40,715 bases of DNA, from assembly GCA_947303055.1 (NCBI GenBank), contig CAMYXV010000007.1, positions 1-40,715 of the forward strand, given 5' to 3'. Positions 26,619-27,240 of the stretch are shown here, piece after piece. Position numbers and translations under genes: made by a program. Below the pieces are notes generated by a model, which was given only the letters and a program-made list of their open reading frames with translations, did no database searches and was not told the origin of the DNA. Source of the DNA: an uncultured Bacteroidales bacterium (GTDB lineage Bacteria > Bacteroidota > Bacteroidia > Bacteroidales > F082). The stretch's first letter is position 1. Each line of letters starts with the position of its first letter.

Positions 26619-26654
26619 TAGGCAAATCATTCAACCAGCCGCGCATGTCAAAGC

Positions 26655-26715
26655 CCCGCTGTCCATGTCATTCCTGCAAGGGCATGTGCGGGGGCTGGAA
26701 TCTATGGGCAGCGGG
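26655..26715. repeat. Structured REP-like hairpin repeat, left copy
   Basis: Outer stem CCCGCTGTCCAT (26655-26666) / ATGGGCAGCGGG (26704-26715), one G-T wobble; internal loop GTC/CT; ATTCC (26670-26674) / GGAAT (26697-26701). Confidence 0.8.
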
Positions 26716-26758
26716 ATGTAGAAATAGAATCTATGTGCGGCGGTTAAAGAAGTAACAA

Positions 26759-27040
26759 ATGAAAACCTATTGGGTATATATGATGCAGAGCGCCAATGGC
26801 AGAGCCTTATACACAGGTGTTACCAATAACCTTGATAGGCGAGTTAGAGAGCATAAGGATGGTTGTGGTTCTGCTTTTACGGCTAGGTATAAGTGCCACA
26901 AGTTGGTATATTATGAAGATTTCGGGTTGATAGATCAGGCGATTGTTAGAGAAAAGGAGATCAAAAATATGACCAGAGCCTCTAAGGAAGAGCTCATTGA
27001 TACTATCAATCCAGAAAGAATAGACTTATTTGAATCTTGA
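26759..27040 (+). CDS. GIY-YIG nuclease superfamily protein (93 aa, UvrC-N/URI type)
   Basis: MKTYWVYMMQSANGRALYTGVTNNLDRRVREHKDGCGSAFTARYKCHKLVYYEDF...AIVREKEIKNMTRASKEELIDTINP; WVYMM...LYTGVTN is the GIY-YIG core. Confidence 0.9.
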   Translation: MKTYWVYMMQSANGRALYTGVTNNLDRRVREHKDGCGSAFTARYKCHKLVYYEDFGLIDQAIVREKEIKNMTRASKEELIDTINPERIDLFES

Positions 27041-27051
27041 CCATCATTGAC

Positions 27052-27116
27052 GGCCTTGGAAAGCATAGATTCCATACGCACATATCCCTGCGAGGAATGA
27101 CATGCTTTCCAATGCC
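27052..27116. repeat. Structured REP-like hairpin repeat, right copy (inverted relative to left copy)
   Basis: Outer stem GGCcTTGGAAAGCAT (27052-27066) / ATGCTTTCCAAtGCC (27102-27116); ATTCC (27069-27073) / GGAAT (27094-27098); CGCA (27077-27080) / TGCG (27089-27092). Reverse complement shares CATGTCATTCCT...GGAATCTATG with the left copy. Confidence 0.8.
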
Positions 27117-27206
27117 TGCTTTACTCAGCGTCGGGATGACATACCTGTTGAGGCCTGCGTCATTGCCTGTCATAGGGTTTGTTCTGCGGAATGATGCGAT
27201 AATGGT

Positions 27207-27240
27207 TTTGTAGAGACGTTGATTATCGCGTCTCTACAAA
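27207..27240. repeat. Palindromic repeat TTTGTAGAGACG ... CGTCTCTACAAA
   Basis: Perfect 12-bp arms 27207-27218 and 27229-27240 with a 10-bp spacer. Confidence 0.85.

Follow-up and report, generated by a model that had tools for sequence, protein, structure and literature searches.

Repeats of the CGTC-tagged REP type, including dRS3 of Neisseria and RPE-4/6 of Rickettsia, have been described from five phyla without a dedicated transposase, and the enzyme that spreads them was left open (Di Nocera et al. 2013, PMC3733652). The REPtrons, composed of a RAYT gene encoding a Y1 transposase and of REPs with a GTAG tag, carry the enzyme gene between inverted REPs and have non-autonomous REP dimers elsewhere, and the enzyme clade matches the repeat type. 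A further related system is Ssn, a GIY-YIG nuclease, which in a 2025 report in Nature Communications is said to cut single-stranded DNA at the Neisseria repeat NTS; Ssn of N. meningitidis reportedly modulates transformation, and thousands of homologues with sequences of their own are said to have been found in the same study. If so, the pairing of such a nuclease with a repeat is already known and the locus described herein is a variant of it. In our literature search, no paper was found that connects CGTC-tagged REPs with GIY-YIG proteins. New in this study are the likely link to the CGTC-tagged REPs, the REPtron-like anatomy together with deletion derivatives, the paired outer stems of the hairpins, and the evidence for mobility.

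The window, as we call the whole stretch of 40,715 nucleotides analysed here, is a contig of a 2.18-Mb metagenome genome (58% complete). From the letters alone, a 93-aa GIY-YIG ORF had been noticed between two hairpins of opposite orientation that share a core with an asymmetric GTC/CT internal loop, and this sequence-only reading was borne out: the ORF matches the GIY-YIG domain of Pfam (PF01541, E=1.2e-15), and both hairpins are as described (left, 26654-26717; right, 27056-27112, in minus orientation; details in Table 1). As single-stranded DNA, the left and right hairpins fold with energies of -17.0 and -15.2 kcal/mol, corresponding to z-scores of -3.6 and -5.3 against dinucleotide shuffles. 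GIY-YIG is the sole Pfam domain of the protein, without any Y1 HUH transposase domain, and the catalytic and motif residues are kept among its GIY-YIG relatives. The UPF0213/YazA housekeeping GIY-YIG proteins have the same fold, and the nearest solved structures are the UPF0213 proteins 1ZG2 and 1YWL. As judged by the nuclease, the nearest named relatives are uncultured Bacteroidales/Bacteroidia, several of them from ruminants (RUG and yak-abomasum MAGs), and the DNA seems to come from a rumen bacterium. A relative in N. gonorrhoeae (38% identity, pair E=3e-19), which is flanked by dRS3 repeats, belongs with the 93-aa protein to one large clade, but the two are placed in separate clades within the tree.

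Table 1. Coordinates of the features of the nuclease-hairpin locus in the window
Feature	Position	Strand	Evidence or remark
Older interrupted left-end hairpin, 5' half (CAGCCGCGCAT-GTCA)	26636..26650	+	9-bp pairing with 26727-26749 across the inserted hairpin
Left-end hairpin, outer arm, 5' side (CCCCGCTGTCCAT)	26654..26666	+	pairs with 26704-26717
Left-end hairpin core: GTC tag, ATTCC...GGAAT stem, CT opposite	26667..26703	+	21 copies in own genome
Left-end hairpin, outer arm, 3' side	26704..26717	+	folding, covariation
Older left-end hairpin, 3' half, and inner left-end motif GGCGGTTAAAG	26727..26749	+	motif in dimers and relatives
GIY-YIG nuclease gene, 93 aa	26759..27040	+	conserved Y7, Y18, G20, R28, H32, E65, K69
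Inner right-end motif TTGACGGCC	27047..27055	+	common to short dimers and relatives
Right-end hairpin, outer arm (TTGGAAAGCAT)	27056..27066	-	pairs with 27102-27112
Right-end hairpin core, inverted relative to left core	27067..27101	-	core pattern matches
Right-end hairpin, outer arm (ATGCTTTCCAA)	27102..27112	-	folding, pairing with 27056-27066
Older right-end hairpin, orphan 5' half (GGGATGACATACCTGTTGAGGCCTGC)	27133..27158	-	arm equals complete hairpins in other copies

The window protein is like Ssn in being a small single-domain GIY-YIG protein with repeats present in many copies, including around its gene, but the window unit differs in its REPtron-like build with deletion derivatives and in its bulged double-stem hairpins, and its site-specific cutting is inferred. 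With REPtrons it shares the enzyme gene between inverted repeats, the non-autonomous dimers elsewhere and the match between enzyme clade and repeat type; it is REPtron-like in anatomy only, with a GIY-YIG hydrolase in place of the Y1 transposase and a GTC tag in place of GTAG. The left hairpin is enclosed by a broken older hairpin, the arms of which still pair over 9 bp, and half of another hairpin is situated just outside the right one. The motif GGCGGTTcaaA after the left hairpin is found also in the short dimers and in the nuclease units L234-L240. At 27210-27237 the window carries, in addition, a near-perfect 28-bp palindrome, GTAGAGACG-N10-CGTCTCTAC, which is present in 33 copies in the genome; its 10 inner bases vary among the copies but are nearly always self-complementary, and its mobiliser is unknown.

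A search for the core showed that the genome carries the hairpin at further sites too, in many cases as head-to-head dimers that resemble REPINs. The exact core, TGTCATTCCT-N(8-32)-GGAATCTATG, gave 8 matches in the own genome (G000) against 0 for the reversed pattern, and a relaxed gapped pattern gave 21 against 1, an excess over the reversed patterns that places the core beyond chance; a strict 26-mer hairpin pattern had no matches, and the gapped pattern was used instead. With this pattern, 16 copies were found in genome G003, 23 in G007, 8 in G012, 67 in G019 and 5 in G002 (reversed pattern, 0-1), and after the scanning of 40 relatives, 37 in G016, 69 in G021 and a few in G011 and G022. In total, the hairpin family is present in 4-69 copies in nine congeners and in 0-1 copies in the remaining ones, and most copies do not adjoin a nuclease gene. 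Two complete hairpins of the own genome, L007 (G000:C106) and L008 (G000:C129), occupy in-frame positions within mfd and within a glycosyltransferase gene; G003 carries both, G007 only that in the glycosyltransferase gene, and the other relatives neither, and between G000 and G007 the in-gene hairpin shows a paired change of the outer stem from CCTTGCAT/ATGCAAGG to CCGTGCAT/ATGCACGG.

The claim that the outer stems of the two hairpins differ in sequence and yet stay paired, by compensatory change around a conserved core, was found to hold widely in the family, with strong support. In a set of 121 copies, drawn from six congeneric genomes, the median length of the outer stem was 9 bp; the stem reached at least 7 bp in 83.5%, against 4.9% when the arms were swapped between copies. 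Among 60 distinct copies, the covariation score was 0.640, compared with 0.174 after shuffling (0 of 500 shuffles as high) and 0.18 at most when the register was slid, and double changes were observed in 12 of the 14 outer pairs and in the single variable inner pair. The search pattern itself fixed the loop bases GTC and CT, and the presence of TGTC in all copies is partly imposed by it; the AT/AT step outside the loop is nearly invariant, though mostly not set by the pattern. The outer arms recur, for instance AGCAGCCAT 12 times and AGAAAGCAT 7 times. We considered also that the outer stems might be pre-existing palindromic targets, a reading that is not favoured because the arms recur in families with graded compensatory variants.

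In the outer stems G-U pairs (43) exceed A-C mismatches (17), pointing to the GTC strand as the one that folds, an inference weakened by the relatedness of the copies. This bias fits selection on one folded strand of either RNA or DNA, and stem covariation by itself would be compatible with selection for a hairpin in RNA as well; together with the frequent location of the hairpins just 3' of genes, it could be argued that they are RNA elements, such as terminators or mRNA stabilisers, and that the proximity of the nuclease gene is incidental. We consider this very improbable, with an association with GIY-YIG genes far above that of control genes and repeated in many phyla with different hairpins (see below), two copies lying in frame inside coding sequences, and no match in Rfam; the search of PADLOC also gave no match.

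The window hairpin is like the CGTC-tagged REPs in its TGTC/CGTC tag and a stem starting with AT, and the families are alike in occurring mostly as head-to-head dimers in intergenic, and sometimes intragenic, positions (Di Nocera et al. 2013, PMC3733652). The window family shares with the superfamily the unpaired TGTC tag that borders a short palindrome and the predominance of head-to-head dimers (27 of 38 adjacent pairs); it lacks the AT-starting stem of 8-9 bp with a loop of 4-5 nt, the conserved stem of the window family starting with AT but being 5 bp long with a longer, variable interior (mostly 11-25 nt) and an additional, covarying outer stem of about 9-15 bp. The tail in the window family is CT, followed by pairing into the outer stem, and is CC or CCA in other nuclease clades; the consensus tail of CGTC REPs is a short unpaired CCA (PMC3733652). 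The hairpin is a TGTC-tagged REP surrounded by an additional outer stem, which turns the GTC tag and CT tail into an asymmetric internal loop. The window hairpin therefore resembles the CGTC/TGTC REP superfamily without being a typical member, and the window locus differs also in carrying a nuclease gene between two hairpins.

The own genome encodes a second GIY-YIG nuclease (L028, G000:C25:2307-2555), flanked by a different repeat, GGTCCCTGAGCCTGTCGAAGGGCCG, of which 68 copies are present. This repeat is bimodal in the genus, with 34-98 copies in nine genomes and 0-3 in most others. All genomes in which its nuclease was identified are high-copy ones (5/5, chance 0.003), and this applies also to the window-family nuclease with its own hairpin (3/3, chance 0.01), genome relatedness being ignored in both estimates. 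The hairpin type tracks the protein tree, requiring 15 changes against a mean of 23.3 and a minimum of 18 in 400 shuffles, on a tree of few columns with hairpin labels on only 43 rows. No close relative of the window nuclease was found in G021 (98% complete; 69 hairpin copies), nor the nuclease for GGTCCCTGAGCCTGTCGAAGGGCCG in G018 with its 87 copies of that family, indicating that copies persist without the cognate gene or that another mover acts.

GIY-YIG relatives were identified in 192 of 296 Bacteroidota genomes, at up to 15 per genome. An inverted-repeat score of at least 20 was obtained for the flanks of 59% of 56 Bacteroidota GIY-YIG loci; for 276 control genes the figure was 5% (p=2e-18 for the scores, Mann-Whitney test). 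Among the usable named loci, 76 in number and belonging to many phyla, 67% reached this score, compared with 8% for cross-locus pairs. Control genes had been added because repeat families shared between loci inflated the first cross-locus control. The predicted enrichment near GIY-YIG genes is thus strong, and neither of the findings that would have refuted the proposed unit was made, namely hairpins without positional association to GIY-YIG genes or a gene conserved at syntenic sites without hairpins, the nearest relatives keeping both hairpins at non-syntenic sites. The arrangement of a gene between inverted hairpins was found in Bacteroidota, Chloroflexota, Planctomycetota, Pseudomonadota, Acidobacteriota, Cyanobacteriota and candidate phyla. 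Among named records, CGTC-type repeats flank the gene in N. gonorrhoeae (dRS3), Azospirillum (CGTCATCCCCGCGAAGGCGGGGATCCA), and Shinella and Neorhizobium (GTCATCCTCGGGCTTGACCCGAGGATCC), and likewise in Aeromonas and Sphingobium. Flanking inverted hairpins were absent at the GIY-YIG loci of Legionella, Photobacterium, one Rhizobium and Bacillota (Radiobacillus); the Radiobacillus gene, near yabA and beside rsmI, is outside the main clade.

Several other GIY-YIG loci may be described at this point. On plasmid p1 of Planktothrix agardhii (L103), a repeat-flanked gene is situated between a type IIL restriction enzyme and drmA of DISARM. At L021 (1504-1803) and L027 the reading frames continue into the repeat beside them, so that the protein ends, for example, in TGPSTSSGT. 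Genes of another clade, L024 and L033 (G025), L026 (G027), L032/L038 (G035) and L025/L034 (G036), lie among tRNA genes and tRNA fragments, with eight tRNA-like genes within 3.2 kb at L024, and this clade is possibly a tRNA-targeting relative.

The dRS3-flanked N. gonorrhoeae relative, together with the N. meningitidis Ssn, which is said to cut single-stranded DNA at such repeats and to modulate transformation, raises the possibility that the nuclease modulates DNA uptake or recombination by cutting incoming single strands at the repeats, these being marks for a host function and not parts of a mobile element. The patchy presence of the genes in Bacteroidota, their variable number, their non-syntenic positions and the non-autonomous derivatives are typical of a mobile element, and we regard the uptake role as an unlikely sole explanation; the two roles could coexist.

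The derivatives are the short dimers. The head-to-head pairs, mostly about 50 bp apart, were counted together with the window pair, which entered the 38 several times owing to overlap between the loci. The nuclease locus has this same dimer arrangement, with a 361-bp spacer containing the gene, and non-hairpin sequence is common to both: the left hairpin is followed by GGCGGTTcaaa, and TTGACGGC precedes the right one. On the basis of these inner motifs, the 50-bp dimers appear to be nuclease units that have lost their interior, the equivalents of REPINs or MITEs.

Mobility was then assessed from the genomic contexts. The seven nearest relatives (78-87% identity) have left hairpin, gene and right hairpin, with some ends rearranged or nested; their homology to the window DNA does not extend beyond the hairpins, and, apart from the syntenic pairs L235/L238 and L236/L237, they have unrelated genes on either side, so that the eight units occupy at least six contexts. 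At site A, a dimer follows a gene in G021 and G019 and is missing from G016, G003 and G000, in which the next gene follows almost directly; G016 is 93-95% identical to G021 on both sides. At site B the dimer is missing in several congeners. In Azospirillum lipoferum, REPs-nuclease-REPs lie between sufB and sufC, and the sufB-sufC regions of A. oryzae, A. ramasamyi and strain B510 (about 95% identity) contain neither REPs nor nuclease. The sister genomes thus provided the expected presence and absence at the same site, but not an exact empty site, and, as already noted for the window locus, no clean target-site duplication was found at the other sites; C and D are too diverged for such a reading, and B gives a hint of a 4-bp TACA repeat that we do not trust. 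Without a clean duplication or exact empty site at the loci compared, the joining step remains unseen. Among Sphingobium plasmids (L105, L149, L151), siblings were found with one fused palindrome where others have repeat-nuclease-repeat, a candidate product of excision or a candidate pre-insertion state.

Of 175 complete hairpins, 13 have immediately upstream an orphan 5' half, consisting of an arm, GTCATTCC and a bit of loop, and none has an orphan 3' half there; a complete hairpin with both halves around it is rare (1/175). By this asymmetry, new copies appear to insert into the loops of older hairpins, on the 3' side of GTCATTCC, which is only suggestive as the count takes in related loci; such an insertion point fits an enzyme acting at its own recognition hairpin, the cutting being inferred. 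Hairpins inside or beside broken hairpins would also be expected if the GIY-YIG gene were a homing-type parasite, which invades repeats spread by another machine by cutting empty copies and is copied in through recombination between the identical repeats at its flanks. The high-copy genomes without the gene agree with this, as do the Sphingobium siblings TomTYG64/74, with a single fused palindrome (CCGTCACCCCGGGTCAAGCCCGGGGTGACGG in TomTYG64) in place of repeat-nuclease-repeat, although this difference is equally explicable as deletion. We are inclined to doubt the homing explanation: the short dimers keep the unit-specific inner sequences beside each hairpin, as deleted nuclease units rather than original targets would, and the hairpin type tracks the protein tree.

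Taken together, we consider it probable that 26654-27112 is a small REPtron-like mobile unit, comprising a left hairpin, a GIY-YIG gene of the Ssn kind and an inverted right hairpin, and the REP/REPIN-like nuclease-repeat unit first proposed for this locus, at that time without a link to CGTC-tagged REPs or to Ssn, is supported by association, dimers and covariation. The unit and its boundaries, the unrelated contexts, the non-autonomous derivatives, the presence and absence at the same site, the stem covariation and the co-variation of nuclease clade with hairpin type are shown at the level of sequence. It is inferred that the enzyme binds and cuts at the loop and that its substrate is single-stranded; the joining of new copies and transposition itself are likewise inferred. 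As a working model, the hairpin would extrude from DNA that has become single-stranded, on the lagging strand or during repair or uptake, the nuclease would recognise the GTC/CT loop and cut there, and host polymerase, ligase and recombination would duplicate or transfer the intervening segment to another site, often an existing hairpin; the 50-bp dimers would be non-autonomous copies moved in trans. To our knowledge, GIY-YIG nucleases hydrolyse DNA with no known rejoining, which counts against the reading as a mobile unit.

A wider proposal, which in our judgement could fall either way, is that CGTC-tagged REPs are mobilised by GIY-YIG nucleases of the Ssn type, the enzymes missing so far, and that these nucleases define a transposase-free class of mobile elements in many bacterial phyla, responsible for much of the intergenic repeats of GTCATTCC, GTCATTGCGAG and GTCATCCTGAG type; an element of this class would consist of a nuclease and hairpin ends, and be completed by host repair. 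The window unit and the like arrangement in the other phyla name a candidate enzyme that may spread the CGTC-tagged REPs, which are among the commonest short repeats of bacteria; this was the question left by Di Nocera et al. (2013), and the bulged hairpin with the GTC/CT loop is a substrate testable in vitro. If true, the system would represent a second, independent solution to the RAYT/REP design, achieved by a nuclease that only cuts.
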